A DNA stretch of 63,803 nucleotides. It comes from an uncultured Bacteroidales bacterium (lineage in GTDB: Bacteria; Bacteroidota; Bacteroidia; Bacteroidales; Paludibacteraceae). Positions 4,845 to 63,668 of this stretch are shown piece after piece. The stretch covers positions 1-63,803 of the forward strand of contig CACZEL010000009.1 in NCBI GenBank assembly GCA_902780235.1. Direction: 5' to 3'. The notes below the pieces were generated by a model. It was given only the letters and a program-made list of their open reading frames with translations. It ran no database searches and was not told where the DNA came from. The translations under genes were made by a program, and so were the position numbers. Position 1 is the stretch's first letter. Each line of letters starts with the position of its first letter.

Positions 4845-5914
4845 TGAATCTGCGTCTGAAATTAGCATTATGGTTGGAGCGCCTGAGGCGGCAAAACCTC
4901 AAGCAGCTTCACCCGTTGCAACAGCTGTTCTGGGAGTCCACGCTGCGCTGCAACGTGCATTGTCTGCATTGCGGGAGTGACTGCGTGGCATCGGTGGAGA
5001 CGCCGGACATGCCTGCCGAGGATTTCCTGCATGTGATCGACACGGAGATCACGCCGCATGTCGATCCGCATAAGGTGCTGATTATCATCTCCGGCGGTGA
5101 ACCGCTGATGCGCAAGGACTTGGCGGATATCGGTCGTGCGCTTCACCAACGCGGCTACCCGTGGGGCATGGTGACGAACGGTCTGGCGCTGACGGAGAAG
5201 CGCTTTGATGAACTGCTGGACGCCGGTCTGCGTTCGATCACCGTCTCGTGCGACGGACTGGAGCAAGATCATATATGGCTTCGCCAACACCCGCTGGCTT
5301 TCGAAGGCGCGACGAGGGCGATAAAGCTAATAGCCAATAGCCAACAGCCAATAGCCTGGGACGTGGTGACATGCGTGAATCAGCGGACGATCGACCATCT
5401 GCCGGCGATCCGCGACATGCTGTGGGGCTTGGGCGTACGCGACTGGCGGATCTTCGGCATCGATCCGATGGGTAGGGCAGCCGAGAACCCTGAACTGCTG
5501 CTGACGGACGAGCAGTTCAAGGCGCTGATGGATTTTATTGTGGCAGAACGCGAAGCGGGACGGCATGTGTCATATTCATGTGAAGGCTATCTGGGTTCGT
5601 ACGAAGGCCGCGTCCGTGATCATCTCTACCAATGTGCCGCCGGCATCAGCGTGGCTTCCATCCTCATCGACGGTTCGATCTCTGCTTGCACCTCCATCCG
5701 CGGCAAGTACTACCAGGGCAATATATACAAGGACTCGTTCTGGGAGGTATGGGAGCATGGCTTCCAGCCGTACCGCGACCGCTCGTGGATGAAAGAATGC
5801 GCGCCCTGCAAGGACTGCAAAGCGTTCGCTTTCTGCGAAGGGAACGGCATGCATCTGAGGCGCGAGGACGGCAGTCTGATGCTGTGTCATCTGCATCGCC
5901 TCGGGTTGGAATAA
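4841..5914 (+). CDS. Radical SAM/SPASM protein, lipoprotein-associated
   Basis: 357 residues. The radical SAM cluster motif CNVHCLHC is at residues 37-44, followed by GGEPLMR (the GGE motif) near 87 and an SCDGL segment near 140. From about residue 267 a SPASM domain carries many cysteines (QCAAG, ISACTS, CAPCKDC, FAFCEG, MLCHLH) for auxiliary iron-sulfur clusters. Such proteins modify peptides or proteins through radical chemistry; in Bacteroidales a distinct class sits beside small lipoproteins, as here. Residues about 162-172 (LIANSQQPIA) come from a 7-bp tandem repeat array (5326-5356) that is repeated exactly in the phosphopantetheinyl transferase gene, so they are probably an insertion in a loop. 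Likely cytoplasmic; the substrate is unknown. Confidence 0.85.
   Translation: MMNLRLKLALWLERLRRQNLKQLHPLQQLFWESTLRCNVHCLHCGSDCVASVETPDMPAEDFLHVIDTEITPHVDPHKVLIIISGGEPLMRKDLADIGRALHQRGYPWGMVTNGLALTEKRFDELLDAGLRSITVSCDGLEQDHIWLRQHPLAFEGATRAIKLIANSQQPIAWDVVTCVNQRTIDHLPAIRDMLWGLGVRDWRIFGIDPMGRAAENPELLLTDEQFKALMDFIVAEREAGRHVSYSCEGYLGSYEGRVRDHLYQCAAGISVASILIDGSISACTSIRGKYYQGNIYKDSFWEVWEHGFQPYRDRSWMKECAPCKDCKAFAFCEGNGMHLRREDGSLMLCHLHRLGLE
5326..5356 (+). repeat. Heptanucleotide array inside radical SAM gene
   Basis: Four and a half units of GCCAATA type (GCTAATA, GCCAATA, GCCAACA, GCCAATA, GCC). The 31 bases are identical to 17850-17880 in an unrelated gene and are read in the same frame. Confidence 0.9.
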
Positions 5915-5955
5915 GAAAATTATAAAAATTATACTTAATTACTCATTTTATCACC

Positions 5956-7071
5956 ATGGACAAGAAGGAAGAGAGAAAGCCTATTTATTTTGGCGGATGG
6001 CAATTCGGGGATGTCATTCGTCAGGAGTTACCGGGACCTTGCGGAGAAGGCGAAGTGCGCTTTCCCAACAATGACTATTTCAAGGGTCATTTCTGTCTGA
6101 GTTATGCCTCTATCTGGGGGTCCGCCTATCTGGCAACAGGAAGGTATGAGTTCGCAGACGGGCGCTATATTGAGCCGGCATATGTGCATTTCGACAAGAC
6201 AGGTACGCTCTTTATGTTAGACGGTTTCTATCGCGTCAAGCACCCGGAGCGTCCGGATTCGTTGGTATGTATCAAGTCGGGCGAATATTACGGCATCGAG
6301 TTGGTGCTGGCAGACGAACCGTTCATCAGGGAATGGTACGCGGGCGAACAGATCGAACGGGAGTCGCCGCTGCAGTTGAAACGATACGAACTGGATGACT
6401 CGAAAGGCGATGATTTCCTGGCTCTCACGCTCTATCTGCATAGCGACGAGGGTGATTTTGAGGTGCTTACCCGCGGTGGACAACTCTCGACGAACCAATA
6501 CGACAACAATATTTTTGAGCCCAGGATCTATCAACGCGTTCAGTTGCCCAACGGCAATATTTATGTAGCGGCTTACAGTTGTACGGCGCTCAAGCAGTTT
6601 GCTCCTTACGACGGCTATGTGACCTATTATGACACAGCCAATAAGCAGTTCCGCGAAGAACTATGGACCGAAGGTGTGCTGGAAAAAGCGGAGGAATGGG
6701 TCAAGGAAAAAGTAGAAGAACCGAAGCCCGAAGAGGCAAAGCCGGAAGAGCCCGTATGGGAAGGCGAACCGATCATCCTGCATCTGCAGTACGGCAACAG
6801 ACACTGGAGTATCAGCAATGCCGGCGAATGGGAGTATGAGCATGAGGACCGCGTGGCGCAATACGGTTCGTTCAAGTTAGTGGGCTTCTACAGTTATGAG
6901 ATCAAGAAGATCGAAGCCGACCGCATCACGATCGTTTCGTATGACGAGACGTATTACCTGACGCCGGACGAACCGCTGCATCTATACAACGAGATCGAAG
7001 GGCGCGAATGGAGCGACGGATGTGTGTACGACGGCGATGAGTACGCGCTGCATATTACCTGGAAGAAATAA
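5956..7071 (+). CDS. Hypothetical protein with MORN-like start
   Basis: 371 residues, no signal peptide or membrane segment, so probably cytoplasmic. The first third has a pattern reminiscent of MORN repeats (GEGEVRFPNNDYFKGHFCL, later GRYEFADGRYIEPAYVHFDKTG). An E/K/P-rich linker (residues about 240-270, EEPKPEEAKPEEP) joins it to a C-terminal beta-rich domain. I do not recognise a family. It lies 41 bases after the radical SAM gene without its own visible promoter and ends at a strong terminator (7074-7099), so it may be the last gene of that operon. Confidence 0.6.
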   Translation: MDKKEERKPIYFGGWQFGDVIRQELPGPCGEGEVRFPNNDYFKGHFCLSYASIWGSAYLATGRYEFADGRYIEPAYVHFDKTGTLFMLDGFYRVKHPERPDSLVCIKSGEYYGIELVLADEPFIREWYAGEQIERESPLQLKRYELDDSKGDDFLALTLYLHSDEGDFEVLTRGGQLSTNQYDNNIFEPRIYQRVQLPNGNIYVAAYSCTALKQFAPYDGYVTYYDTANKQFREELWTEGVLEKAEEWVKEKVEEPKPEEAKPEEPVWEGEPIILHLQYGNRHWSISNAGEWEYEHEDRVAQYGSFKLVGFYSYEIKKIEADRITIVSYDETYYLTPDEPLHLYNEIEGREWSDGCVYDGDEYALHITWKK

Positions 7072-7073
7072 AG

Positions 7074-7099
7074 AAAAAAGCGTCCGAGGACGCTTTTTT
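7074..7099 (+). terminator. Intrinsic terminator
   Basis: Stem GCGTC (7080-7084) / GACGC (7089-7093) with a CGAG loop, flanked by A6 and T6. It can act in both directions, ending the plus-strand gene at 7071 and, with the repeat array, the minus-strand hpf gene. Confidence 0.85.
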
Positions 7100-7161
7100 A
7101 GCTGTTGGCTGTTGGCTGTTGGCTGTTAGCTATTGGCTGTTAGCTATTGGCTGTTAGCTGT
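7100..7161. repeat. Intergenic heptanucleotide array
   Basis: About eight tandem units alternating GCTGTTG, GCTGTTA and GCTATTG. Read on the minus strand this is the GCCAACA/GCCAATA family seen inside several genes. It runs into the 3' end of hpf, whose last codons and stop (AAC AGC TAA) lie within the array. Confidence 0.9.
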
Positions 7162-7429
7162 TTTTGCGCTTTTCCAATTGGCCTTCCAGAGCGGAGAGGC
7201 AAGCGTCGATACCTTCTTCGAAGGTGTCAGCTGTTTTCTCGGCGAACAGCCCTGCGATACGCATCTTCACCTCTTTGTTGGCATTGGTCTGCGGTTTGAT
7301 GACAGACATGCGGATTTCCACTTTGTCATCCGGGTTTAAATGACGTTCAAAACGATTCATTTTCTTCTCAATAAATTGCTCGAGTTTCTCAGCCATCTCG
7401 AAATTTACGGCATTAATAGTCAGATTCAT
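7154..7429 (-). CDS. hpf: Ribosome hibernation promoting factor, short form
   Basis: 91 residues, the normal size of short HPF/YfiA proteins. It shows the fold's features: INAVNFEMAEKLEQFIEKKMNRFERH at the start, the middle strand VEIRMSVIKPQTN, then FAEKTADTFEEGIDACLSALEGQLEKRK. Such proteins bind the 30S subunit in the tRNA/mRNA channel and promote inactive 100S ribosomes in stationary phase. It has its own minus-strand promoter at 7466-7497. Its last codons and stop are formed by the heptanucleotide array at 7100-7161, so the C-terminus has probably been remodelled by the repeat. Confidence 0.9.
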   Translation of the reverse strand: MNLTINAVNFEMAEKLEQFIEKKMNRFERHLNPDDKVEIRMSVIKPQTNANKEVKMRIAGLFAEKTADTFEEGIDACLSALEGQLEKRKNS

Positions 7430-7610: not shown

Positions 7611-9104
7611 ATGAACAGGATTTTTTGTTGGATAGCGATGACATTATTTAGCGCGTACGCCTTAGCGGGCGTACACGACCTTGTTTGGGACTATACGGTC
7701 TCGGCGCCGACGGAGAATCCGGATCGAGGGCTTCAGTACGGTTCGGCGGTGAATGATGCGGAAGGGGTGAAGAACGGTCTGAAGGGTATCAAGTTGAACA
7801 GTTCGGGGTGGTGCTCGTTTACGAAAGCCGCTGTACCCGGTGTACTAAAACTGACGTTCGGTCCGCGAAGCGGCATGAACCCTGCTTCGCTGCAAGTGCA
7901 TCTATGGGACGGTTCGCCGACGGGGGAAGTGACGCTTATTGCAGAGACCTGTGAGCAAAGATCATTGGCTACGCAGGCGATCCCGCTGACGGCGGAGCAG
8001 AACCATATTTTCATTACCCGCCTGCTGAACATGGAGACGGTGCTGCAGAAGATCGAGTTTGTGGCAGGTGAGACGGTCGAGCGGCAGCCGTGCGAAGAGG
8101 TGGCGGAGGAAGAAACTATCATGCCGGAGGTGCGCACAGATACCTTGTCCGCCAACGCACTTTTTTTCTTACGCGCGCTCGAGCAGGCGAACGCGACGGG
8201 CAAGCAGACGATCTATCTGCCCAACGGCGTGTATGACCTAGGCGGGTTGACGCTGACGACGATCGCGGCAAGCGGGATAGCGATCATCGGCGAATCGATG
8301 GAAGGGGTCGTCATCCGTAATACGCCGGATTACAGAGTGGAGTCGATTGACAAGAGTGCGACCTTGCGTATCGCACCAAACGTGGAGCATACCTATCTAC
8401 AGAATCTGACGATTCAGAACGCACTCGATTATTACGCCAATAACAACGGTCGTGCCGTCGCATTGTGGGATCAGGGCACTAAGACGATCTGCAAGAACGT
8501 ACGGCTGCTGAGTTATCAGGATACCTATTACAGCGACCATGTTGGTGCGCTCAAGTATTTCGAGGACTGCGAGATCCACGGCACGGTCGATTTCATCTGC
8601 GGGGACGGCAATGTGTATTTCAAGAACTGCCTCTTGTACTGCGAGAAACGCAGTGCGGACGGTCATGGATCGGATGCTTTGACGGCAAGTGGAGCAGACA
8701 AGGACGATAAGGGCTATGTGTTTGAGAGCTGCCGGGTGCAGAGCGAATGTCCGGTGGTGAGCCTCGGGCGCAGTTGGAAGAACAGTCCGCGGTGCGTGTT
8801 TCTGCGTACGGTTTTGGATTATAGCGCAGGGGATTTTGCATTGGAGAACAAAGATATCAAGCGCTGGACGATGCAAGGCATGTCGGTGCTTCCGAAGTGC
8901 TTCGGCGAGTACATGACGATGGACACGGAAGGACGTGTGATCTCGCCTGAGACGAATGACGTGACGTTTTTCTTCCGCGCTCGTACCAAAACGATACAAA
9001 CGATACTCACTCCTGCACAAGCGGAAGCCTACACGATGGAAAACGTGTTAGGTCCATGGGTAGAAGAAGCAAAACAACAAATACAAATTCATTTAACTAA
9101 CTAA
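7611..9104 (+). CDS. Pectinesterase-like secreted protein
   Basis: 497 residues from ATG 7611 (an upstream ATG lies before the promoter). A signal peptide (MNRIFCWIAMTLFSAYALA) is followed by a beta-sandwich-like N-terminal part and, from about residue 190, a pectinesterase right-handed beta helix. Family motifs visible: SYQDTYY (QDT), GTVDFICGDG (catalytic Asp; DFIFG in classical enzymes) and VSLGRSW (Arg). The QAVAL motif reads RAVAL, so the glutamine that helps form the oxyanion hole is replaced by Arg; GxYxE is also altered (GVYDLG). Carbohydrate esterase family 8 is therefore likely but the activity may differ. A paralogue follows 11 bases downstream. No SusC/SusD genes are nearby. Confidence 0.8.
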   Translation: MNRIFCWIAMTLFSAYALAGVHDLVWDYTVSAPTENPDRGLQYGSAVNDAEGVKNGLKGIKLNSSGWCSFTKAAVPGVLKLTFGPRSGMNPASLQVHLWDGSPTGEVTLIAETCEQRSLATQAIPLTAEQNHIFITRLLNMETVLQKIEFVAGETVERQPCEEVAEEETIMPEVRTDTLSANALFFLRALEQANATGKQTIYLPNGVYDLGGLTLTTIAASGIAIIGESMEGVVIRNTPDYRVESIDKSATLRIAPNVEHTYLQNLTIQNALDYYANNNGRAVALWDQGTKTICKNVRLLSYQDTYYSDHVGALKYFEDCEIHGTVDFICGDGNVYFKNCLLYCEKRSADGHGSDALTASGADKDDKGYVFESCRVQSECPVVSLGRSWKNSPRCVFLRTVLDYSAGDFALENKDIKRWTMQGMSVLPKCFGEYMTMDTEGRVISPETNDVTFFFRARTKTIQTILTPAQAEAYTMENVLGPWVEEAKQQIQIHLTN

Positions 9105-9115
9105 AATTATTCACA

Positions 9116-12061
9116 ATGAAAAAGATTTTTCTTTTTGCGTTAGGTGCTCTGATGAGCATAAGCGCATGGTCGTATGACAATGTGTCGGCGACGTTTAAGT
9201 GGACGGTCGGCAATGAGTCAGAGGCAACAATCATTTCGGCTGCGTCTGCGGGCGTAGGTTCGACGCAACGCAAGGTAGGTACGGCGCTGACCGAAGGTAC
9301 GCGTAACAACTTTGCTGCCAATCCCGGCGTGACGATGGTGACCTATACCCCGGCGAGCAACAAACCCGGTACGGTAGCCGAGGCCATGATCGAGTACAGC
9401 GTGAAGATGAAGAAAGGTGTCACTTTTACGCTGAAGGGTATTCACTACGATGCCATCAAACAGGGAACGAATAACGCTTCGTATCACTGGACGTATGCCG
9501 TAGATGGTGTGGAGGCAAACCCGACACAAGTGGTAGCGGATGATATCCTTCGCGATAACAACACGACCGGTACTCCCGATTTGCTTCACAGCCATCTGGT
9601 GACGGCTTCTGCAGGACGCGAGGTCGCTGTTCGATTCTATGTTTCCGGTTTTGATGCCACTAAGTTGTTTTGTCTTTGCAATATCATGCTGATGGGTACC
9701 ATTAACGGCGAAGAGGAAGTACGTTCGTTCACGGATTTCGAGATCGAGTTCCGCGATGATCCGTTCACCGTTTTGCTGCCGGAAGGCGGTGAGCTGCCTA
9801 CAGGCGTGACGGTAGAAGGCACGACTTATAACGGCGGTCAGCATGGCGTACAGGGCGGTACGATTACCGTTCCAGTAGATGGCCCGGTGAAATTCACCAT
9901 CGGTGCTTGCACCTATAGCCAGACCGGAATCACGGTGAAGAAGAACGGCGAGGATTTCGCAACTATCAGCAACAAAGCTGCTTGCGGTGAGCAGATACCG
10001 CACTATGACCAATTTATTACTTGGACCTACAACGTAGAGGAAGCAGCGACGTTGACCTTCGAGTTCGGCTCGCAGACCTACGTACCATATTTCTTTGCGG
10101 AGGCATGTGACTTCGTGCCGCAGGTAGAGGTGCGTTATTTCGATACCGACGGTAAGACCCTTATTGGTGAGCCGCAGATAGTAGAAGGCGGTTCGGCTCT
10201 GACTTTTGCCTATGGTGTAGAGAACGTGACGGTCGCAGAAGGAAAAGTTTTCCGCGGATGGTTTAACGCTTCGACTCCGACGGCTACAAAAGTGGCAGAG
10301 GGTACTCCGCTGACGGAGGATCTGAGTCTGTACGCAAAAGCAACCGAGTATGAGATCGCCGAAACAGGTAAGATCTTCACCTATGACCTGACGAAGAACT
10401 ACTTCTACATGGAGGATCATGAGCTCATCTCTACCGAGGGAGGTAAGTACCATAACGCTCAACACGGATGGGTCTTCGGAAACGGCAACACGCTGAGCAT
10501 CGAGGTAGCAGGTAACGCCCTGCTGTCCGTAGGTGTCTGCACGTATTCGAATACCGGCGCGACCTTGGTCAAAAATGCTACCGACAGCGTCATCGGACAG
10601 TTAGAGGTAGAGAAAGAAGTGACCCCGGACGGCTCGGAGCAAACGATCCACTACAACGGCGAAGCAACCGTGCTGACCTTCCATTTCACCGGCACGACTT
10701 ATATTCACTCGATCAAGGTCTATAACGTCAACACTATCCCGACGAAGAATGAGGCGGGTTACTTCATGATTGCACCGGACGATGCAGCGGGCTTCCTGCT
10801 GGCGCTCACTTCCGCTGCTGACGGAGATAAGATCTTCCTGCCGAACGGAACCTACGACCTCGGCGAGGCTGTACTGACCCCGATCAGCAAGAACAACCTC
10901 TCTATCATCGGTCAATCGATGGAGAACACGATCATCAAGAACGCTCCGGACTTCCATAATGAGGGTATCGGTACGACCGCTACTTTCCTCATCACTGCTA
11001 CCAACACCTATTTCCAGGATCTGACAATCCAGAACGCCTTGGATTATTTCGGTGCTATCAATGCCGGTCTGGGCGGTGGACGTGCTGTGTGTCTGCAGGA
11101 TAAGGGTACGAAGACGATCTGCAAGAACGTCCGTCTGCTCAGTAATCAGGATACCTACTACAGCAACAAGGTAGGTGCCGTCAAGTACTTCGAGACCTGC
11201 GATATCCACGGAACCGTCGATTTTATCTGCGGTGACGGTAGCGTTTATTTCCACGGCACGAGCTTGGTTTGCGAGCAACGCAACCCGAACGGCGGTGGAG
11301 CAGACGCAGTAACCGCCAGCAACGCCGACGCCAGCGACAAGGGATATGTCTTCAACTATTGTACGGTTACGTACGCAGAGAATATCGAGGGCGCCCTGCC
11401 GGTTGTCAGCCTGGGTCGTAGTTGGAACAACGCGCCGAAGACCGTCTTCCTCAATACTTTCCTCGATAACTCGAACGGTGAGCTGATCATGACCAAGGAT
11501 GCGTCTCAGCAGAAAGACAAAGTGGCTCGTTGGACCCTCGGCGCCATGAACGCGCTGCCGACACTCTTCGGCGAGTACAACTCGGTTGATAGCGAAGGCA
11601 ACGTCATCTCTCCGGAGTCAAACAATGTGACCTTTGTTCTCGGCGAGAGTGAGAAGCAGATGGAGACCATCCTCACGGCAGAGCAGGCGGCTACTTATAC
11701 CATCGACTACACCCTCGGCGACTGGTCTGAGACCGCTCAGGCAGACGCTACGCAGGCGATAGCGGACGAAGAGAATATCGATCCGGAGGGCATCTACCTG
11801 GTTGAGTACCTCGAAGGTGGTTACGCCATCGTAAAGGGTACCGACTTTACCCAGAGAGAATTCGTTCCGCAAGGCGATCACACGCTGCGTAAAGCGAACG
11901 CACGCGGCGGTTTCGGAGAAACAGCAGGCGAGGGCCCCGAAGGCGTGGAGAACGTCCTGAATAATAACAACGAGAGCGAATGGCAGAAAGTGCTGCGTGA
12001 CGGTCAGGTGATTATCCTCCGTGACGGTAAGGCATTTAATGTATTAGGTGCAGAGCTCTAA
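9116..12061 (+). CDS. Large multidomain pectinesterase-like protein
   Basis: 981 residues with signal peptide (KKIFLFALGALMSISAWS). Order: N-terminal beta-sandwich domain (about 20-195), a second beta-sandwich (about 200-335), an InlB/Flg_new-type repeat (VRYFDTDGKTLIGEPQIVEGGS... FRGWFNAS..., about 340-420), a third beta-sandwich similar to the second (YHNAQHGWVFGNG..., about 420-540), and a pectinesterase beta helix (about 545-880) with SNQDTYY, GTVDFICGDG and VSLGRSW. The QAVAL position again reads RAVCL. The C-terminus (KVLRDGQVIILRDGKAFNVLG) resembles the ends of the proteins at 50282 and 51469, perhaps a sorting tag. Its end overlaps the MATE gene by 14 bases. Confidence 0.8.
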   Translation: MKKIFLFALGALMSISAWSYDNVSATFKWTVGNESEATIISAASAGVGSTQRKVGTALTEGTRNNFAANPGVTMVTYTPASNKPGTVAEAMIEYSVKMKKGVTFTLKGIHYDAIKQGTNNASYHWTYAVDGVEANPTQVVADDILRDNNTTGTPDLLHSHLVTASAGREVAVRFYVSGFDATKLFCLCNIMLMGTINGEEEVRSFTDFEIEFRDDPFTVLLPEGGELPTGVTVEGTTYNGGQHGVQGGTITVPVDGPVKFTIGACTYSQTGITVKKNGEDFATISNKAACGEQIPHYDQFITWTYNVEEAATLTFEFGSQTYVPYFFAEACDFVPQVEVRYFDTDGKTLIGEPQIVEGGSALTFAYGVENVTVAEGKVFRGWFNASTPTATKVAEGTPLTEDLSLYAKATEYEIAETGKIFTYDLTKNYFYMEDHELISTEGGKYHNAQHGWVFGNGNTLSIEVAGNALLSVGVCTYSNTGATLVKNATDSVIGQLEVEKEVTPDGSEQTIHYNGEATVLTFHFTGTTYIHSIKVYNVNTIPTKNEAGYFMIAPDDAAGFLLALTSAADGDKIFLPNGTYDLGEAVLTPISKNNLSIIGQSMENTIIKNAPDFHNEGIGTTATFLITATNTYFQDLTIQNALDYFGAINAGLGGGRAVCLQDKGTKTICKNVRLLSNQDTYYSNKVGAVKYFETCDIHGTVDFICGDGSVYFHGTSLVCEQRNPNGGGADAVTASNADASDKGYVFNYCTVTYAENIEGALPVVSLGRSWNNAPKTVFLNTFLDNSNGELIMTKDASQQKDKVARWTLGAMNALPTLFGEYNSVDSEGNVISPESNNVTFVLGESEKQMETILTAEQAATYTIDYTLGDWSETAQADATQAIADEENIDPEGIYLVEYLEGGYAIVKGTDFTQREFVPQGDHTLRKANARGGFGETAGEGPEGVENVLNNNNESEWQKVLRDGQVIILRDGKAFNVLGAEL

Positions 12062-13385
12062 TCGCGACATATTACGTCTCGCCGTACCGAGTATCTTGGC
12101 GAACATAACAATCCCTTTGGTGGGCATTGTGGATACCGCTATCGTCGGGCATCTGAGTGATGCTGCGGCGATAGGCGGTATCGCCATCGGTACGATGCTC
12201 TTTGACCTGCTGTACTGGAACTTCGGTTTTCTGCGTGTAGGTACCTCCGGTCTGACAGCGCAGGCGTATGGGAAAGGTGAAAGGTTAAAGGAGAAAGGTG
12301 AAAGGGTTCCTCCGGAGTGCCGGAAGATCCTGACGCAGAGCGTGACGATCGCGCTGATAGCCGCTTTTGCCATATGGGCGATACAGTATCTCTTCGTGAC
12401 GGCCGTCTTGGCGATCGTGCCCTGTTCGGCAGAGGTGGCAGCGGTAGCACGGGACTATTTCTTCGTGCGCATCTGGGCAGCGCCGGCGACCATGATGCTC
12501 TTTACTTTCAAGGGTTGGTTCATCGGCATGCAAGACACGAAGAGTCCGATGGCGGTGGATATACTGGTTAATGTGGTGAACATGGCCGCCAGTTATTACC
12601 TCGCCGTTCATACCCCGTTAGGCGTAGTGGGCGTGGCACACGGTACGGTCATCGCGCAATATAGCGGACTGACGCTGGCGATCGGCATCCTGTGCATCAA
12701 GTACGGCATCATCCATATCGGTCTGAAGGAGATCATCGAGGCGATGCGGTGGACGGAAGTGAAGCGAATGATGTCGCTCAACGGCAATATATTCATTCGC
12801 TCGCTCTGTATGATGGTGGTGTATGTAGGTTATACGAGTCTGGCAAGCCGGTTCGGTGATACGGAACTGGCGGTGAGCAGTATTATGATGAAACTGTTCA
12901 TGTTCTTCTCTTTCTTCGTGGACGGTTTTGCCTATGCCGGTGAAGCGCTGGTTGGGAAGGCATTCGGGGAATTAAAAATTAAAAATGAAAAATTAAAAAT
13001 TGACGAAATAGTCCGTCAACTATTCAAATGGGCGATAGGGGTAGGACTGCTTTTCTCCTTGATCTATGGGGTATTGGGAAGGATGAATATCGAGTTGATG
13101 ACCAGCGATGAGACGGTGATTGAGGCTGCGATGCAGTATATCGGATGGTTGATCGCGATGCCGTTCGTCAGTGCGTTGGCGTTCATGTGGGACGGCGTTT
13201 ATATAGGTGCTACAGCCGGCAAACAGATCCGCAATGCGATGATCTGGGCAGCAGTCGGTTTTGTGGCAGGCTATTTGCTTACGTACCGTTGGTTCGGTGC
13301 GCAGGCACTTTATATCGGTTATTTCGCGCACTTGATAGCGCGATCACTTTATTTGACAGTAGAATGGAAAAAAGTTGAAAGGTGA
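12048..13385 (+). CDS. MATE-family multidrug/Na+ antiporter (DinF-like)
   Basis: 445 residues starting at GTG 12048, overlapping the previous stop. The start (ILRLAVPSILANITIPLVGIVDTAIVGHL) and the DTAIVGHL segment are typical of MatE proteins, which have twelve membrane helices and export cationic drugs or metabolites against Na+ or H+. Two loops are encoded by short tandem arrays: residues about 75-87 (GKGERLKEKGER, 12272-12306) and about 307-318 (ELKIKNEKLKIDE, 12970-13003), both falling between membrane helices. The gene ends in another array (KKVER then stop). It is followed at 4 bases by an RND adaptor gene, so two efflux systems share one transcript. Confidence 0.9.
   Translation: MQSSNRDILRLAVPSILANITIPLVGIVDTAIVGHLSDAAAIGGIAIGTMLFDLLYWNFGFLRVGTSGLTAQAYGKGERLKEKGERVPPECRKILTQSVTIALIAAFAIWAIQYLFVTAVLAIVPCSAEVAAVARDYFFVRIWAAPATMMLFTFKGWFIGMQDTKSPMAVDILVNVVNMAASYYLAVHTPLGVVGVAHGTVIAQYSGLTLAIGILCIKYGIIHIGLKEIIEAMRWTEVKRMMSLNGNIFIRSLCMMVVYVGYTSLASRFGDTELAVSSIMMKLFMFFSFFVDGFAYAGEALVGKAFGELKIKNEKLKIDEIVRQLFKWAIGVGLLFSLIYGVLGRMNIELMTSDETVIEAAMQYIGWLIAMPFVSALAFMWDGVYIGATAGKQIRNAMIWAAVGFVAGYLLTYRWFGAQALYIGYFAHLIARSLYLTVEWKKVER
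12272..12306 (+). repeat. Heptanucleotide array inside MATE gene
   Basis: Units of GAAAGGT type (GAAAGGT, GAAAGGT, TAAAGGA, GAAAGGT, GAAAGGG). The same family occurs at 13371-13391, 17453-17480, 20340-20373, 24016-24063, 32795-32821 and, inverted, 41706-41737. Confidence 0.85.
12970..13003 (+). repeat. Heptanucleotide array, AATTAAA family, inside MATE gene
   Basis: Units AATTAAA, AATTAAA, AATGAAA, AATTAAA, AATTGAC, read in frame as a Lys/Glu-rich loop. The inverse form occurs between genes at 63633-63668. Confidence 0.85.
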
Positions 13386-13389
13386 AAGG

Positions 13390-14412
13390 ATGAAAGAAAT
13401 TTATTATATATTCATTTTGGCGCTGCTTTTTCTTGGATCTTGCACGAAACATGACAGTGCGCAACGGGAGCAGGCACCTATCAAGGTGAAGACGATGGTG
13501 GTAGCACCGCAGGAGAACGGTGCGGTCTCGCGTTATGTGGGTGCGATCGAACCCGCGCACATTACGCCGCTGAGTCTGCAGACCACGGGTAGAGTAGTGG
13601 AGATAGCGGTGAAGAACGGTCAGCGTGTGACTCAAGGTCAGACGATTCTGGCGGTAGATAACACGCAGGCATTGAATGCGCTCCGCACCGCTGAGGCTTC
13701 GTTACGTCATGCACAGGACGGTTTTGACCGCGTGAGCAAGGTGCATGACAAGGGAGTCGTGTCAGATCAGAAGATGGTGGAGATAGAGAGCCAGTTGGCA
13801 CAAGCTCGCTCGCTCTATGAAGCGGCTCAACAGCAATTGAAGGAATGTACGCTGACCGCTCCCTGCGAGGGCGTGATCGACGGACTGAATATGGTGGTCG
13901 GACAAACGGTTCTGCCCGGAACGACGCTCTGTACGATCCTCGACATGCGAGCGTACAGTGTCCGCTTTACCGTGCCGGAAGCGGAGATCGGTGCCTTGCC
14001 CGATAAAGGGCAAGTCGTTTGTGAGGCTATTCATGCCGAACTGCCGATCACGATCACAGAACGCGGCATAACCGCCAACCCTCTCACGCATACCTATGAG
14101 GTGGTAGCTGACATCAAAGACAAAGCCGAAGGACTCAAAGCAGGTATGGTAGCCGTTGTCAAGCTAAAAGCTAACAGCCAACAGCTAACAGCTTCTCAAA
14201 ACATCGTTATTCCGGCACAATGCGTACTGTTAAAACCCGAAGGAGCGACCGTGTGGGTAGTGGAAGACGGAAAAGCTGCGCGACGCCTCGTGACGGTGGA
14301 CGGCTACCAGGCTGACGGCGTACGCGTGACGGAAGGATTACAAGAAGGCGATCAATTGATCACCGAAGGATATCAGAAACTTTACAACGGCTGTCTTGTT
14401 GAAAACGAGTAA
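13390..14412 (+). CDS. RND efflux membrane-fusion (adaptor) lipoprotein
   Basis: 340 residues. I choose ATG 13390; an in-frame TTG at 13375 lies in a repeat array. The signal peptide ends LLFLGSC (lipobox), so it is a periplasmic inner-membrane lipoprotein. Family features: YVGAIEPAHITPLSLQTTGRVVEIAVKNGQRVTQGQTILAVD (first lipoyl half; split here), a coiled hairpin with KVHDKGVVSDQKMVEIESQLAQA, the second half APCEGVIDGLNMVVGQTVLPGTTLC, and a C-terminal barrel. It links the RND pump at 14396 to an outer-membrane channel. Residues about 257-268 (KANSQQLTAS) derive from a heptanucleotide array. The GAAAGG before the start, a possible ribosome-binding site, is also repeat-derived. Confidence 0.9.
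   Translation: MKEIYYIFILALLFLGSCTKHDSAQREQAPIKVKTMVVAPQENGAVSRYVGAIEPAHITPLSLQTTGRVVEIAVKNGQRVTQGQTILAVDNTQALNALRTAEASLRHAQDGFDRVSKVHDKGVVSDQKMVEIESQLAQARSLYEAAQQQLKECTLTAPCEGVIDGLNMVVGQTVLPGTTLCTILDMRAYSVRFTVPEAEIGALPDKGQVVCEAIHAELPITITERGITANPLTHTYEVVADIKDKAEGLKAGMVAVVKLKANSQQLTASQNIVIPAQCVLLKPEGATVWVVEDGKAARRLVTVDGYQADGVRVTEGLQEGDQLITEGYQKLYNGCLVENE
14161..14193 (+). repeat. Heptanucleotide array inside RND adaptor gene
   Basis: Units AGCTAAA, AGCTAAC, AGCCAAC, AGCTAAC, AGC. Encodes the peptide KANSQQLTAS, close to IANSQQPIA at 5326 and 17850. Confidence 0.85.
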
Positions 14413-17400: not shown

Positions 17401-17467
17401 CTTACCGCTGACGGTGACGATCCTGCCGGTGGTGTATTGGAAAGTGCATGGGAAAGGTGAAAAGTGA
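14396..17467 (+). CDS. RND-family efflux pump permease
   Basis: 1023 residues, the usual RND pump length. Start taken at TTG 14396 overlapping the adaptor gene; ATG 14429 (MRHHGIVMALF) is an alternative and leaves a very short lead before helix 1. Features: N-terminal helix then FPQFSIRQGLVVALYPGATADEVEQQVT, porter domains, helix 4 region with GMIVDDSVIVIDGY (acidic residues of proton relay), repeated second half with LWSVVAALAVMLLLLLYHFGKIG and GIVSLIGIIVRNAIMMYEYAEDA, and FLTSATTALGVLPM. It pumps substrates with the adaptor at 13390. No outer-membrane TolC-like gene is in the operon, so the channel must be encoded elsewhere. Confidence 0.9.
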   Translation: MLKTSKHIEGAMRHHGIVMALFIGLMAFGIWSLPRMNKDEFPQFSIRQGLVVALYPGATADEVEQQVTMPLEDYINSFEAVDKKLTYSISEDGMAYVYVMLRMADIDNEVAWNKIRAGLPLLQKTKMPTGVLQTALIDDFGNTSSILIAVESDQRSPRELEQYAKQVCAHLRTIPEMGKLRIMGQQTEEIAITIDIEQLSRYGINPTALQTQLALQGLRTIGGEQAGQSLQVLIPYQSEYEMQEQIVWSDPVSGATLRLKDIASVTRRYQAPKQYVTFNGQSCLILNMEMVPGNNIVAFGQEVDKQLTEASVLLPPDIQFHRITDQPKVVNDSVLSFLRDILISILVVIAVMLMLFPLRTALVAATGLPVCTAICIGLMYVTGIELNTVTLAALIFVLGMIVDDSVIVIDGYTNYLDRHHSRWYAANVSTSLLFVPMSLATMAICGMFFPMTRIITGPLGEFVQYFPWAVLYALVASIFYATWVTPFLSFRYIRLRKADELNFVERIQNRFFAWLQAAYKKGLTACFDHPFIVWLLLGGATTIGIVLLFNRNLQLLPKAEREFFAVEIHLRDGATVEESAVVADSLASILRQDARVQSVTAFIGQSSPRFHATYTPQTPAPNYAQLIVNTPSSKATGQLLKEYGTKYDNYFPNAYARFKQLDYQAVKNPLEVRVQGDNWEVMAPIADSIARFMVRQPELRWIHSDFDRTAASTRIVLKADEATRLGITQTMLSLYLRQVTQGATLTTLYEGSYGVPVVLYTENTAQMGVTDLENIQVPTAIPGVWVPLRQVATLEPAWHHTKLERRNAVRTITVGADLRGTVSQVSAEKKVKEWIDSHLTELPEGVTVTYGGLSEINGLLIPQILWSVVAALAVMLLLLLYHFGKIGLALLTLSSAILCLFGSMTGLWLFDLDISITAVLGIVSLIGIIVRNAIMMYEYAEDARKYKHLTYREAAFQAGIRRMRPVFLTSATTALGVLPMIIAATSLWMPMGVVICFGTIFTLPLTVTILPVVYWKVHGKGEK

Positions 17468-17480
17468 AAGGTGAAAGGAT
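17453..17480 (+). repeat. GAAAGGT array between RND pump and Sfp genes
   Basis: Units GAAAGGT, GAAAAGT, GAAAGGT, GAAAGGA. It covers the pump's stop codon and supplies the AAAGG just before ATG 17479, a possible ribosome-binding site. Confidence 0.8.
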
Positions 17481-18066
17481 GAAGGTCGTCGTTTTTGATA
17501 GGATGGAAGAATGTACGGAGGCAGAGGTGCAGCGCATGCTGCCGCTCGTGAGTGCACAGCGACGTGAACAGGCGCTGAAGTACAAGCATACCTTCGGGCA
17601 GTTCTGTTGTTTGAAGAGTTGGTTGATGCTTTTCGACTTTGTCGAGATGTCGAGATATCGAGATCTCGAATGGAAATACAACGAGCACGGTAAGCCGTAC
17701 ATGGCGAACGGACCGTATTTCTCTATCTCGCACTGCAAAGAGGGGATCGCTGTCGCGATCGATGATGCACCGATCGGGATTGATATAGAAGCCATCCGGC
17801 ATGCCAATGAGGACTTGATCGAGCGCACGATGAATGAGGAGGAAAAACGGCTAATAGCCAATAGCCAACAGCCAATAGCCGATAGAGAGTTCACACGCTT
17901 TTGGACGCAGAAAGAGGCGATCGTGAAAGCCGAAGGAACAGGGATAATGTCTTTTGAGCAACTCCAAAAGACATTGGAAAGTGAAAAGTGGAAAGTGGAA
18001 AGTTTTGAGAAAGAAAAATATATATACAGTATAGCATATGGACAATTATGTAGTATCAGCGCGTAA
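17479..18066 (+). CDS. 4'-phosphopantetheinyl transferase (Sfp/AcpT type)
   Basis: 195 residues from ATG 17479 (GTG 17464 is possible but lies in a repeat). Signature motifs are IGIDIE (family GxDxE) near residue 95 and FWTQKEAIVKAEG (WxxKEAxxK) near 140, with PYFSISHC before them. The enzyme moves phosphopantetheine from CoA onto carrier proteins such as acyl carrier protein. It is unusual in containing three separate short tandem arrays: residues about 54-64 (VEMSRYRDLEW), 124-134 (LIANSQQPIA) and 165-175 (LESEKWKVE). The middle one separates the two catalytic motifs. It overlaps dnaX by 29 bases. Confidence 0.9.
   Translation: MKVVVFDRMEECTEAEVQRMLPLVSAQRREQALKYKHTFGQFCCLKSWLMLFDFVEMSRYRDLEWKYNEHGKPYMANGPYFSISHCKEGIAVAIDDAPIGIDIEAIRHANEDLIERTMNEEEKRLIANSQQPIADREFTRFWTQKEAIVKAEGTGIMSFEQLQKTLESEKWKVESFEKEKYIYSIAYGQLCSISA
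17640..17671 (+). repeat. Octanucleotide array inside Sfp gene
   Basis: Units TGTCGAGA, TGTCGAGA, TATCGAGA, TCTCGAAT. A related array on the minus strand ends engB at 37925-37970; both encode EMSRxRDLE. Confidence 0.8.
17850..17880 (+). repeat. Heptanucleotide array inside Sfp gene
   Basis: Identical over 31 bases to 5326-5356 and read in the same frame as LIANSQQPIA. Confidence 0.9.
17974..18004 (+). repeat. Third short tandem array inside Sfp gene
   Basis: Units GGAAAGT, GAAAAGT, GGAAAGT, GGAAAGT, related to the GAAAGGT family; encodes ESEKWKVES. Confidence 0.75.
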
Positions 18067-19756
18067 GTACAGGCCGCAGACGTTTGAGTCGGTAGTCGGT
18101 CAGCAAGCCTTGACGCAGACGCTTCAGAACGCGATTCGTCAGAACCGTCTTGCGCATGCGTATCTGTTTTGCGGTCCGCGAGGAGTAGGTAAGACCACTT
18201 GTGCGCGTATCTTCGCTAAGACGATCAACTGCCTCAACCCGCAGAACGGGTTCGATGCCTGCAACGAGTGTGAGTCGTGTAAGGCCTTCAATGAGCAGCG
18301 GTCGTTTAACATCCACGAACTGGATGCGGCATCGAACAACTCCGTGGATGACATCCGTGCTTTGATTGATCAAGTGCGTATCCCGCCGCAGATCGGTAAG
18401 TACTCCGTCTATATCATCGACGAGGTACACATGCTTTCGGCGGGCGCGTTCAACGCCTTACTGAAGACGCTCGAAGAACCGCCCTCATACGCCATCTTCA
18501 TCCTCGCGACCACGGAGAAGCATAAGGTGCTGCCGACGATCTTGAGTCGTTGTCAGGTGTATGACTTCAACCGTATCACGGTGCAGGACACGATCGCGTA
18601 CTTGCAGAAAGTGGCGGCGTCGGAAGGTGTAACGGCGGACGAAGGAGCACTGAACGTGGTGGCGCAGAAAGCCGACGGAGGTATGCGTGATGCCTTGTCG
18701 ATCTTTGATCAGTTGGTAGCCTTCTGCGGAAACAATATTACGTATGAGCGCACGATCGAGGTGCTGAACGTGCTCAATGCCGACTATTATTTTAAGTTGG
18801 TAGAACACGCTTTGCGGCACGATGTGAAAGGTGCTTTACTGCTGCTGAACGAGGTGCTGAATCACGGTTTTGATGCCGGTTTGTTCATCACGGGTTTGGC
18901 GCAGCATCTGCGCGACGTGCTGGTAAGCAAAGACCCGCAGACGATCACTTTGTTGGAGACGAGCGATGCGATTCGTCAGCGCTATGCCGCGCAAGCCAAG
19001 TTATGTTCGCCTGTTTGGATCTTCCAGGCACTCGATATCCTCAATACTTGCGATATCAATTACCGTACGGCGAAGAATAAACGTCTGACGGTTGAGTTGG
19101 CGCTGATCAAGTTGACCCAACTCGGCGTGCCGCAGAATATTCCTGCTGCTCAACCGACCCCTCAGCCGGCGCAAAAAACTAGTCAGCCTAGTCAGTCTAG
19201 TCAACCTAGTGCTCCTAGTTCGCCTGCTCCTCAACCCGCTCCTCAACCCGCTCCTCAGCCCGTTGCTCCGCAGCCGACGGCGGCTTCGGCGATGCCGAAG
19301 ATCCCTAAGATTGGTCTGGGGCTTGGTCCGAAGAAAAAAGAGGAATCTGCTGAGGCTAACAGCCAAGAGCCAACGGCTAACAGCCAACCTCAAAACAGCC
19401 CTTTTACGGCTGACCAACTCAAAGACGCGTGGGTTGGTCTGGCTACAACCCATAAAGAGGAATTGCGTCTAAAGGATCTGATTGAGACTTATATCCCGAC
19501 CTTGGTCGAAGAGAACACGGCTCAGATCGAGATGCCGAACCCTTGGCAGTTGAGTCAGATGCGTTCGGCCTTGCCGAAACTGTTAACACAACTGCGCAGC
19601 ATCCTGAAAAACGACCTGCTGAGTATCCAGTTGGTGCTGGCAGAATACGATCAGGAACAGATGGCGTTTACTGCCGATGAGAAATATGCGTTGATGGCGC
19701 AGGCAAACCCTGTGCTGACACAATTGAAAGAGAATTTGGATCTACAAGTAGACTGA
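18038..19756 (+). CDS. dnaX: DNA polymerase III subunit gamma/tau
   Basis: 572 residues. N-terminal AAA+ clamp-loader ATPase: Walker A GPRGVGKTT (about residues 46-54), four-Cys zinc module (CLNPQNGFDACNECESC with C61-type start), Walker B region DEVHML near 128, and arginine-finger region LSRCQVYDF. Domain III follows to about residue 365. A Pro/Ser/Gln-rich linker (about 370-420, many PQPAP units) and a heptanucleotide-derived segment (EANSQEPTANSQ, about 438-450) precede a C-terminal tau-like domain. It loads the sliding clamp during replication. It starts inside the end of the Sfp gene. The PQPAP linker is also encoded by 9-bp direct repeats (about 19220-19270). Confidence 0.93.
   Translation: MDNYVVSARKYRPQTFESVVGQQALTQTLQNAIRQNRLAHAYLFCGPRGVGKTTCARIFAKTINCLNPQNGFDACNECESCKAFNEQRSFNIHELDAASNNSVDDIRALIDQVRIPPQIGKYSVYIIDEVHMLSAGAFNALLKTLEEPPSYAIFILATTEKHKVLPTILSRCQVYDFNRITVQDTIAYLQKVAASEGVTADEGALNVVAQKADGGMRDALSIFDQLVAFCGNNITYERTIEVLNVLNADYYFKLVEHALRHDVKGALLLLNEVLNHGFDAGLFITGLAQHLRDVLVSKDPQTITLLETSDAIRQRYAAQAKLCSPVWIFQALDILNTCDINYRTAKNKRLTVELALIKLTQLGVPQNIPAAQPTPQPAQKTSQPSQSSQPSAPSSPAPQPAPQPAPQPVAPQPTAASAMPKIPKIGLGLGPKKKEESAEANSQEPTANSQPQNSPFTADQLKDAWVGLATTHKEELRLKDLIETYIPTLVEENTAQIEMPNPWQLSQMRSALPKLLTQLRSILKNDLLSIQLVLAEYDQEQMAFTADEKYALMAQANPVLTQLKENLDLQVD
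19353..19389 (+). repeat. Heptanucleotide array inside dnaX
   Basis: Units GGCTAAC, AGCCAAG, AGCCAAC, GGCTAAC, AGCCAAC. Encodes EANSQEPTANSQ in the linker before the tau domain. Confidence 0.85.
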
Positions 19757-19783
19757 TCACTGAATACTGAAAACTGAACACTA

Positions 19784-44951: not shown

Positions 44952-45011
44952 CGATTTAACGTTTTGATGAAATCAAAACCATTTTAACTATTTAACTATT
45001 TAACGTTTTTT

Positions 45012-47140: not shown

Positions 47141-47166
47141 GCTATTAATTATTAATTATTAATTAT
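47141..47166 (-). repeat. TATTAAT heptamer array between the GH13 genes
   Basis: Three and a half TATTAAT units fill the intergenic gap. Confidence 0.7.
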
Positions 47167-50281: not shown

Positions 50282-51376
50282 ATGAAAAAATTTACTTTTT
50301 TACTTTTTTTTGTGAGCGCTCTCGCCTATGTTCAGGCTGAGGATGTCATGTACACGCGTTTTAGCCAGTCAACCCGCACGCTGACCTATTATTACGGCGT
50401 GAAACCGTCCGGTAGCAACTATGAGCAGTATAATCCGGGTACAGGGGGTATCCGTTTCAAAGAGTATGCAAAGGAGATTGATATCGTAGTTATCGACGCC
50501 TCTATGCTCAATGTGCATCCTACGAGCCTGCGTAATATGTTTTACGGCGGGTATATCAACGCTACGGATTCTCTGCGTCTGGTGAATCTGAAAGAGATTA
50601 GGGGCTTGGAGAACCTGCAAACGGACGAAGCCGTTACTTTGGAGGATATGTTCTACGGCTGCGAGTCTTTGCAGTCGATTGACCTTAGTCATTTCAATAC
50701 TTCCAAGGTGAAAATCTTTTCCGGTATGTTCTACGCCTGCGCTGCTTTGACTTCCCTGGATCTAAGCTCCTTTGAAACCTCCGCTGCAACCAAGATGAAG
50801 AGTATGTTTGGTCATTGCTATAGCCTGACCGATTTGGATCTCAGTAATTTCAATACGGAGAACGTGACGGATATGGCGGGTATGTTCATCCGGTGTGATG
50901 CGTTGGAGACTTTGGATATCAGCAGTTTTAATACAGGGAATGTGACCGATATGGGATCGATGTTTAACAATTGTGCGGTGCTCAAGACGCTGGATATCTC
51001 CCGTTTTGATTTTAGCAAGGTAACCCGTGTGGATGATATGTTCCGGTTTGACCATGCCTTGGAGACCATCTATTGCAATACGGATTTCAACGAGCTTACC
51101 TCTCTGGAGAGCTCGGACGTGATGTTCGGTGGTTGTTTTGCTCTGGTGGGTGGTAACGGAACTACCTATGATACAAGTTTACCCAAGGACAAGACCTACG
51201 CCCGTCCGGACGATCCGGATAATGGCAAGCCCGGCTATTTCACCGTCAAGAGTTCGGAAGGCGTTGAACAAGTACAAAGGGACAAGGTACAAGGTACAAA
51301 GGTTATCGAGGACGGCGTTCTCTATATAAAGTACAACGGGACAAAGTACAATGTACAAGGCACTGAAGTAAAGTAA
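50282..51376 (+). CDS. BspA-type leucine-rich surface protein (DUF285)
   Basis: 364 residues with signal peptide (KKFTFLLFFVSALAYVQA). From about residue 110 to 270 there are five to six BspA/DUF285 repeats of the pattern LDLSxFNTSxVTDMxxMFxxC (CESLQSIDLSHFNTSKVKIFSGMF, CYSLTDLDLSNFNTENVTDMAGMF, and so on). Such proteins bind host matrix components or other bacteria. The C-terminal 35 residues include GTACAAG-type DNA repeats and end DGVLYIKYNGTKYNVQGTEVK, like the ends of the proteins at 9116 and 51469. Followed after 92 bases by the giant repeat protein. Confidence 0.85.
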   Translation: MKKFTFLLFFVSALAYVQAEDVMYTRFSQSTRTLTYYYGVKPSGSNYEQYNPGTGGIRFKEYAKEIDIVVIDASMLNVHPTSLRNMFYGGYINATDSLRLVNLKEIRGLENLQTDEAVTLEDMFYGCESLQSIDLSHFNTSKVKIFSGMFYACAALTSLDLSSFETSAATKMKSMFGHCYSLTDLDLSNFNTENVTDMAGMFIRCDALETLDISSFNTGNVTDMGSMFNNCAVLKTLDISRFDFSKVTRVDDMFRFDHALETIYCNTDFNELTSLESSDVMFGGCFALVGGNGTTYDTSLPKDKTYARPDDPDNGKPGYFTVKSSEGVEQVQRDKVQGTKVIEDGVLYIKYNGTKYNVQGTEVK

Positions 51377-63199: not shown

Positions 63200-63225
63200 G
63201 GTCGGTCGGACTAAAATTATTGAAC

Positions 63226-63591
63226 ATGATGGAGTATCCATTTATTGATTTCTGGCATCTCTATGCCCCGGACAAGCAGTTCTTCAACCGCTACCGTGCT
63301 TGTGAGCGTCTATGGGCAGCGAAGAGCGAACGTGATCGTTCCCTCATTCTTCGCGAACTGCAAAACGAGCAGTCTGAACGATCTCCGCCTCTCCATACCA
63401 AGAACCCCTATTTCTACCTCATCGACTGGCAACCTCCGCAACCGCACTGGCTCAGTCCGGCAGAAACAGGGCATCTTCTGGCGCAGCAAGTCCCCCTCGC
63501 TGTCTGCCGTAATCCGCAGACAAAGCTTTTCGGTACCGTCACCAAGTCCGAAGCGGACATCTTCGCCCTCGAAGTACATCATTATATGTAA
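63226..63591 (+). CDS. Small conserved hypothetical protein
   Basis: 121 residues from ATG 63226 (ATG 63229 is also possible). No signal peptide. Notable segments: FIDFWHLYAPDKQFFNRYRACERLWAAKS and NPYFYLIDWQPPQPHWLSP, a W/P/Y-rich signature I recall from small Bacteroidales hypotheticals near HTH genes, without function. Preceded by a long structured leader, followed by the GTCGGAT-tta-ATCCGAC hairpin. Confidence 0.65.
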   Translation: MMEYPFIDFWHLYAPDKQFFNRYRACERLWAAKSERDRSLILRELQNEQSERSPPLHTKNPYFYLIDWQPPQPHWLSPAETGHLLAQQVPLAVCRNPQTKLFGTVTKSEADIFALEVHHYM

Positions 63592-63609
63592 ATCCCTTTG
63601 TCTATTAAC

Positions 63610-63626
63610 GTCGGATTTAATCCGAC
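63610..63626. promoter_or_regulatory. Hairpin GTCGGAT-tta-ATCCGAC
   Basis: Perfect 7-bp stem, same arms as the hairpin at 80-96 but a different loop. It lies between the genes at 63226 and 63672, followed by AT-rich heptamers (63633-63668). Confidence 0.7.
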
Positions 63627-63632
63627 AAAAAT

Positions 63633-63668
63633 ATTCACTATTAATTATTAATTTTTAATTTTTAATTC
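63633..63668 (+). repeat. AT-rich heptamer array before the last gene
   Basis: Units ATTAATT, ATTAATT, TTTAATT, TTTAATT, inverse of the AATTAAA family seen inside the MATE gene. Confidence 0.75.

Follow-up and report, generated by a model that had tools for sequence, protein, structure and literature searches.

Heptanucleotide repeat arrays of many word families between and within conserved genes of an uncultured Bacteroidales bacterium

Heptamer repeats are an established class of bacterial repeats, members of which occur in some Bacteroidetes. Heptanucleotides were reported to be the most abundant class of long simple sequence repeats (SSRs) in most prokaryotic genomes studied, and slippage related to the polymerase footprint was suggested for them (Mrazek 2007, via PMC4679880). 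TAACTGA direct repeats, mostly intergenic, were described in Beggiatoaceae, Cyanobacteria and five Bacteroidetes (MacGregor 2015, PMC4679880). The GGGNATC repeats of Xanthomonas form 183–186 heptamer arrays per genome, mostly of four units, the units being heterogeneous and both length and sequence varying among close relatives; the heptamer repeat of Nostoc is the G-rich GGGGA(C/T)T (Rehm 2015, PMC4692102). Here we describe imperfect tandem arrays of 7-bp units in a stretch of 63,803 nucleotides (the window), contig CACZEL010000009.1 of the assembly GCA_902780235.1 from an uncultured Bacteroidales bacterium of the family Paludibacteraceae. An initial sequence-only reading of this stretch considered such repeats unknown from Bacteroidales, which was too strong given the TAACTGA heptamers of five Bacteroidetes (PMC4679880).

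The genome containing the window comprises 2.28 Mb in 58 contigs and is 78.6% complete. In one protein scan the closest named matches came from rumen and gut metagenome-assembled genomes (MAGs), several of them from Paludibacteraceae. The sample taken from this genome contained 463,803 bases, that is, the window and 20 stretches of 20 kb each. Arrays were scored as segments where DNA matches itself at a fixed lag, with thresholds of at least 11 or at least 13; TRF was also run. For the codon control, 41 window reading frames (56,238 bases) were subjected to 40 synonymous permutations and 40 codon-order shuffles. Twenty-four of the proteins encoded in the window were compared with 40 stretches from 27 genomes of the genus; 14 proteins with at least four orthologues were analyzed, whereas 10 proteins with fewer were left out. 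The resulting 14 families cover 23 genomes, the studied one included. Whole-genome figures for the AGCYAAN pattern are numbers of overlapping pattern matches rather than of arrays; for this pattern, as for AATTGAG and AAAGGTG, a reversed control was counted. Two close genomes, G082 and G087, were compared at 19 lag-7 sites classed by eye, with 8-bp arrays omitted; 2 arrays in G082 and 10 in G087 were incomparable.

The period of 7 bp clearly dominates. At a score of at least 11 the window contains 26 imperfect arrays with lag 7, five with lag 8, two with lag 15, and none or one at each of ten other lags (lags 14 and 21 are outside this count). Arrays of 7-bp period, also by TRF, are located approximately where the sequence-only reading had placed them. 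Exact lag runs of at least 10 number 14 at lag 7, 16 at lag 14 and 6 at lag 21, compared with 0–2 elsewhere. In the whole sample, 110 arrays score at least 13 at lag 7, compared with 18, 13, 15 and 17 at lags 8, 9, 11 and 14, respectively, and 0–8 at the remaining lags from 4 to 30; the density is higher in the window (25 arrays in 64 kb) than in the other 400 kb sampled (85 arrays). At the threshold of 11, the sample (about 464 kb) yields 119 lag-7 arrays. Arrays within genes survive the shuffled-codon control proposed earlier: the window reading frames hold 14 arrays scoring at least 11, whereas synonymous permutation leaves 0.28 on average (maximum 2) and codon-order shuffling, 0.05 (maximum 1).

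The words composing the arrays form families. The 119 arrays are built from 47 words (up to rotation and strand), compared with about 112 distinct words expected from random genomic 7-mers; the commonest are AAAGGTG (25 arrays) and the AGCYAAN group (about 30). There are 417 pairs of arrays with identical words, against 7.1 for random genomic 7-mers (maximum 16 in 500 draws) and 27.1 for letter-shuffled units (maximum 50). Six family words that were checked have middling frequency outside arrays (ranks 209–745 of 1172). The TAACTGA class (canonical AACTGAT) is absent among the 47 canonical units; one array of this class was seen in a relative, G064. A crude frame call places 67 of the 119 arrays within long open frames and 17 at the edges of frames, leaving 35 elsewhere, and 14 are in genes of the window, whereas heptanucleotide SSRs, like others with units not divisible by three, would lie mostly outside genes. 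The claims of a family set and of in-frame placement in conserved genes are supported, and the host proteins named earlier agree with Pfam, which gives MATE, the HlyD/RND adaptor, ACPS (Sfp type), DnaX, radical SAM with a YgiQ-type N-terminal domain, YceD/DUF177, MMPL, TonB plug, an EngB-type GTPase and alpha-amylase.

The usual block has four or five units and 30–38 bp. Among arrays scoring at least 13, the bins of 30–38 bp hold 46 of the 60 in-frame and 15 of the 33 intergenic ones (edge cases were not tabulated). Outside 114 arrays of at least 24 bp, exact lag-7 runs of 7–13 nt number 24, compared with the mean of 48.6 at ten control lags (controls were not masked for their own arrays), and therefore there is no excess of arrays with two or three units. 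Lengths grading up from two or three units, as predicted by slippage of heptanucleotide SSRs, were not found in this genome.

Variation within units is uneven. Of the seven phases, the two that vary most hold 0.854 of variants in the genome's own 53 arrays with three or more variants (null 0.693, maximum 0.750 of 300 draws); the same fraction for 45 arrays of relatives is 0.816 (null 0.702, maximum 0.753). Of 46 arrays in the AAAGGTG family, 24 end on AAAGG; of 16 AAAGTCG arrays, 12 end on AAAG. Arrays of AAAGGTG, AAAGTCG and AGCCAAT have uneven end phases, unlike those of AATTAAA, with a possible bias from the trimming rule. The commonest word count is five for AAAGG (14 of 38 arrays) and AAATC (15 of 30), and three for AATT, AGCC and AAAG. 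Five AAAGG words with four 2-nt spacers make 33 bp, and since this length is divisible by three, frame selection may contribute to the count of five. The spacer match falls from 0.74/0.86 inside to 0.33/0.30, close to the chance level, past the last AAAGG, with no such drop at the control phase GGTGA; the start is less clean, as the base ahead of the first AAAGG still matches at 0.70.

Several general rules for the units were rejected. A strict rule of a 5-nt word plus a 2-nt spacer for all families is not borne out, as adjacent-phase clustering of variants is modest (own genome 0.680 vs 0.603, maximum 0.653; genus 0.682 vs 0.609, maximum 0.671; other genera 0.662, within the null range). The motif MRYYRWW, obtained by expectation-maximization on the genome's own units and scoring above shuffles there, failed on held-out units (0.16 vs 0.17 in the genus and 0.15 vs 0.15 in other genera). 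The looser NNYYRWW reached 0.70 against 0.57 for shuffles in the genus, but 0.50 against 0.60 in other genera.

Smaller sets of arrays exist at periods 8, 9, 10 and 11, many of them, by eye, sharing the look of a constant word with a variable spacer. Such 8-bp-period arrays in the window lie at 17640–17669, 42935–42964 and 44983–45004, and some are near-palindromic (TCGAGATA).

Arrays recur at the same places of orthologous proteins. In the 14 families, 78 arrays fall at 22 alignment sites, most of which are variable loops or the ends of genes (EngB, YgiQ, MATE, Sfp, TonB receptor), and none were found in five of the families (M23 peptidase, MltG, MutS, Crp and a small CYTH-like protein, named by eye). 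Across related species one loop may carry different words, another repeat type, or nothing; the comparison with relatives suggested earlier indeed yields some loops without an array. YgiQ has a single internal loop with arrays in 10 of 21 genomes, MATE has two (5 and 8 of 21), and EngB has one (4 of 20 at the threshold used). The TonB receptor loop at residue 295 bears arrays in 7 of 21 genomes, with the words AAAGTCG, AATTAAA, ATCAAAA, CCGTCAG and others, and is short in eight. Among 30 genomes for each protein, the MetK loop contains arrays in 6 (score of at least 9), is short in 14 and has other sequence in the rest, whereas the HolA loop contains arrays in 4.

The closest genome, G029, shares about 82% DNA identity with the window over the aligned block. 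At the 14 sites inspected, it has the same array at two and a similar one at 24013; another word in the same register and with nearly equal length at three (MATE site 2, RND adaptor, Sfp site 2); gaps of 21–30 bp at four; unrelated sequence of similar length opposite the DnaX and YceD arrays; and diverged sequence at two AT-rich intergenic arrays. The arrays of the window are as follows (coordinates, strand, description).

5325–5356, unstranded: AGCYAAN array, in frame (LIANSQQPI), in a radical SAM-like gene (by eye)
7098–7162, unstranded: AGCYAAN family on the reverse strand, intergenic, adjoining a terminator-like hairpin (by eye)
12272–12305, +: AAAGGTG array, MATE site 1 (KGERLKEKGER); G029 has the same array, G103 an AGCGGTT array and seven species a short loop
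12970–13001, +: AATTAAA array, MATE site 2 (ELKIKNEKLKI); arrays here in 8 of 21 genomes, with differing units
13371–13396, +: AAAGGTG array spanning the MATE stop and the RND adaptor start; 26 bp missing in G029
14161–14193, +: AGCYAAN array, RND adaptor; G029 has an AAAGGTG array in this register
17452–17478, +: AAAGGTG array, RND stop and Sfp start; kept in G029
17640–17669, +: 8-bp array (TCGAGAT+N), Sfp; G103, G006 and G069 hold 7-mers in the same loop
17850–17885, +: AGCYAAN array, Sfp (LIANSQQPIAD); ATCAAAA, GGTTACG, AAAGGTG or no array in relatives
17975–18003, +: GGAAAGT array, Sfp; GGACATT in G029 with equal length and register
19354–19387, +: AGCYAAN array, DnaX (ANSQEPTANSQ); imperfect, below the lag-7 threshold and visible only at lag 21
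19752–19782, +: ACTGANN array, DnaX stop and YgiQ start; 28 bp longer than in G029
20338–20373, +: AAAGGTG array, YgiQ (KVERLKLKGER); loop with arrays in 10 of 21 genomes
23605–23631, +: AGCYAAN array, YceD/DUF177
23770–23813, unstranded: AT-rich array, YceD stop and intergenic
24013–24043, unstranded: AAAGGTG array, intergenic; similar array in G029
24130–24154, unstranded: array preceding a pseudouridine synthase-like gene (by eye)
26693–26725, +: AAAGTCG array, MMPL gene (VESRKSKVE)
32797–32821, −: AAAGGTG array flanked by MltG-like and MutS-like genes (names by eye)
36994–37027, −: AAAGTCG array, TonB receptor; arrays in 7 of 21 genomes, short loop in 8
38369–38393, −: AAAGTCG array, EngB residues ~65–73; end of strand 61–69 and the next turn, predicted beta hairpin
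40843–40910, unstranded: pair of AGCYAAN arrays in inverted orientation, lying between two genes
41705–41736, +: AAAGGTG family in other-strand reading, near the N-terminus of an exported-looking protein (STFTFHLSP; by eye)
45832–45857, −: AGCYAAN array, end of an amylase-like gene (by eye)
47143–47166, −: TATTAAT array between two amylase-like genes
48654–48699, −: TGAAATT array, alpha-amylase (GH13) gene
51277–51299, +: ACAAGGT array close to the C-terminus of a surface protein that looks leucine-rich (by eye)
63632–63667, unstranded: TATTAAT/AATTTTT array near the window end, outside any long frame

Several arrays abut start codons. A 30-bp tandem repeat occupies 24238–24302 in the N-terminal part of a pseudouridine synthase-like gene.

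Words at one site may differ while the register is retained. Among 25 equal-length loop pairs with words at least two letters apart, 16 match best unshifted (1 in 7 expected), the pairs not being independent, and for pairs with like words this holds in 13 of 14 cases. The mean distance between units is 2.505 within a genome across sites, 2.519 at the same site across genomes and 2.838 for the remaining pairs; none of 200 permutations reached the observed within-genome likeness.

Families expand in particular lineages. The AGCYAAN pattern has 379 matches in the genome of the window, 9 in G029, 0 in G017 and G082, 3 in G087 and 9 in G102 (reversed control: 5 in the own genome and 5 in G029). AATTGAG is found 163 times in G082, 116 in G087 and 80 in G017, which is only 54% complete, compared with 1 in the own genome and 0 in G029 (control: 3 in the own genome, 0 elsewhere). 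AAAGGTG is shared, with 142 matches in the own genome, 93 in G082, 108 in G087, 92 in G029 and 39 in G017 (reversed control up to 10).

Recent events are seen between G082 and G087, which are about 95% identical in the longest aligned blocks (range 90–96%), the array flanks being 91–99% identical except for one at 81%. Five of the 19 sites are unchanged in length and word, four differ in copy number, three keep the word with changed spacers or units, and seven represent gain, loss or replacement, that is, the array is absent or lies opposite another array, a palindrome or unrelated sequence. In MetK, an in-frame 39-bp array of G082 has no counterpart in G087, and the empty site lacks any unit; residues in the G087 flank hint at a loss there. 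The HolA loop contains an AATTCTC array in G082 and other sequence of equal length, perhaps a palindrome remnant, in G087, with near-identical flanks. The near-empty site at G087 55313 retains about one unit.

Other repeats occupy these loops too. In the EngB, MATE, MetK and HolA loops of G078, G033, G103 and G017 (e.g. L108, L102, L107, L144, L216, L186) palindromes resembling repetitive extragenic palindromic elements occur in some species, the types by eye being CTCTCCCC..GGGGAGAG and GACCGC..GCTCAAAG. As palindromes and arrays share the same loops, these loops are landing places for more than one kind of repeat.

Sense-frame arrays avoid their own stop codons. In GGTGAAA arrays read in sense, the would-be TGA phase is TTA in 10 own and 5 relatives' arrays (by eye), giving ERLKVKGER-like peptides; none of 7 intergenic AAAGGTG-type arrays contain GGTTAAAG. 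Many of the encoded peptides are hydrophilic, others are hydrophobic, often from the reverse reading of the same word, and the reverse reading of AAAGGTG at 41705 falls in an N-terminal hydrophobic stretch. EngB residues 49–64 and 85–92, flanking the loop, are invariant, with one position nearly so, in 20 sequences. The EngB array lies within an insertion relative to the solved Bacillus subtilis protein and in a model (mean pLDDT, the predicted local distance difference test, of 80) spans the strand end and the turn of a beta hairpin; the MetK array is likewise an insertion relative to the Escherichia coli structure.

Heptamer arrays were also found in some of the other Bacteroidales loci examined. 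Far longer ones lie in L059 at 9797–9984 (188 bp) and L076 at 19695–19938 (244 bp), one of these loci being from a Prolixibacteraceae MAG. L242 has arrays at 7762–7885 (124 bp) and 8066–8123 (58 bp) in a 325-aa open frame whose product, by eye, looks like a membrane protease of the CPBP type. Arrays of 9-bp period together with palindromes (TGGCGATAT..ATATCGCCA) form a multi-copy cluster, found three times in the same genome, at L112 10277–10833, L122 8008–8330 and L128 2412–2502. The reversed control pattern has 193 matches in the whole genome G058, and therefore a different family within the order has an abundant heptamer word of its own, near CCGAYAA.

We tentatively favor copying between arrays as their origin, with selection acting as a filter on frame, stop codons and loops. 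An array would arise, or be overwritten, through copying of other arrays in its own genome, either by template switching at the replication fork or by short-tract non-crossover conversion in which arrays pair via partly matching words. Selection would retain arrays that preserve the frame, lack stops and fall in tolerant loops, and slippage would later add or remove copies. Since many one-word arrays appear in one lineage, new arrays were most likely copied from existing ones; the spread by copying considered in the sequence-only reading gains support from the family skew and the bursts, while its proposal that the arrays serve as recombination sites does not. The same-site likeness of units is reached by only 3 of 200 permutations, and, as both this and the within-genome likeness exceed permutations, genome repertoire and inheritance both count.

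Inheritance is one of several points that weigh against this scenario. Block copying of whole arrays was rejected: unit order in AAAGGTG is shared in 16 pairs, compared with 16.9 in shuffles (local-duplicate arrays of L111 excluded), and sharing in AGCYAAN is only modest (8 pairs vs 2.4). As unit order in the commonest family is shared no more than chance predicts, the copied tract would often be about a unit, or mixing would follow. Eleven of the 25 pairs in the register test come from YgiQ, and three of the eight sites fail it; together with inverted arrays at the YgiQ site (G021 vs G031), this failure points to fresh insertion there. Loop tolerance alone could explain the coincidence of sites, and the copy-number changes of 7, 14, 15 and 60 bp between G082 and G087 look like slippage. 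No copying machinery was found, and nothing obvious as a master locus was seen in the arrays, open reading frame lists and sequence of three long-AGCYAAN regions picked among the matches listed. A bolder version, possible but rather doubtful, would have the arrays as a new class of mobile micro-elements, word-spacer arrays written in one step and overwritten in register by dedicated sequence-tolerant copying. Such elements would spread in one-word bursts per lineage, land in the loops of proteins and make those of essential enzymes evolve fast.

Ordinary replication slippage of heptanucleotide SSRs, starting at independent seeds and surviving only in tolerant places, is somewhat improbable as the whole explanation. 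The reported abundance of heptanucleotides among long SSRs (PMC4679880), the copy-number changes in G082/G087 and the unit left at G087 55313 all fit it. Yet independent seeds would give many random words rather than few families, and neither one-word lineage bursts, nor the lack of an excess of 2–3-unit arrays, nor the MetK empty site without a unit is expected; besides, the arrays are in frame though one-unit steps of 7 break it. Slippage accounts for the change in copy number and not for bursts, the lack of short arrays or replacement. Selection at the protein level for low-complexity loops, the DNA repeat being incidental, would suit the many hydrophilic peptides, other peptides being hydrophobic; it is contradicted by the loss of arrays upon synonymous permutation, the same words are intergenic as well, and the 7-bp period yields three reading phases per array, which makes this explanation hardly credible.

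A regulatory role as binding sites on DNA or RNA, which has been suggested for the TAACTGA repeats preceding start codons, would be consistent with variants concentrated in about two of seven phases, array ends at word boundaries in some families and the arrays abutting start codons. Against such a function, which we consider unlikely, are the 47 words in 119 arrays, the location of over half of the arrays in long open frames and their fast replacement between sister genomes. A telomerase-like or DRT-type (defense-associated) reverse transcriptase writing arrays from short RNA templates is even less likely. DRT10 provides a precedent, since its A-B-A' template yields tandem-repeat cDNA whose repeat words are specific to each system (PMC12632851); one RVT_1 match exists in the own genome, and fixed-word families and, in some families, word-boundary ends would fit. 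RVT_1, however, occurs in only 21 of 81 genomes of the genus, and it was not found in the array-bearing G034 (97% complete) and G004 (96%), which have 36 and 12 pattern matches, respectively (reversed control 6 and 0), the search being for RVT_1 and not for other types of reverse transcriptase or template RNA. Therefore an RVT_1 reverse transcriptase is not required.

If confirmed, these arrays would mean that indels and loop replacement in essential bacterial proteins owe much to a neglected class of repeats and occur fast enough to be seen between genomes of about 95% identity. They raise the question of how a 7-bp repeat spreads in frame through genes when slippage by a single unit breaks the frame. 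Array loops would be non-homologous filler, which matters when proteins of Bacteroidales are aligned, placed in phylogenies or modeled in structure.

The arrays had been likened to the short tandemly repeated repetitive (STRR) sequences, named heptamer families of heterocystous cyanobacteria, and to Rickettsia palindromic elements. The latter are in-frame insertions in conserved proteins and are longer palindromes. The likeness to these elements holds for in-frame insertion; the present arrays, however, are tandem and mostly 30–38 bp long, and the self-complementarity of their units does not exceed that of shuffles of the same units, with neither avoidance nor enrichment of hairpins in this test. 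With the products of DRT10 and telomerase they share tandem short words that differ between systems, but DRT10 products are cDNA (PMC12632851), whereas the arrays are chromosomal and need no dedicated reverse transcriptase as far as RVT_1 shows. In a literature search, largely not full-text, no account was found of heptamer arrays that belong to many families, lie in frame and undergo bursts and turnover at fixed loops of proteins. The TAACTGA repeats are one word, mostly intergenic (PMC4679880), whereas the arrays described here comprise dozens of words, in frame in core genes. The Xanthomonas and Nostoc repeats are each a G-rich single family studied intergenically (PMC4692102), in contrast to the many AT-richer families described here, many of them coding. 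With heptanucleotide long SSRs the arrays share the excess of 7-bp tandems and the patchy occurrence among relatives (Mrazek 2007, via PMC4679880, PMC4692102), and from these they differ in having many families per genome, over half of arrays in open frames, a characteristic block size, no excess of short precursors, bursts, and change of words at fixed loops.

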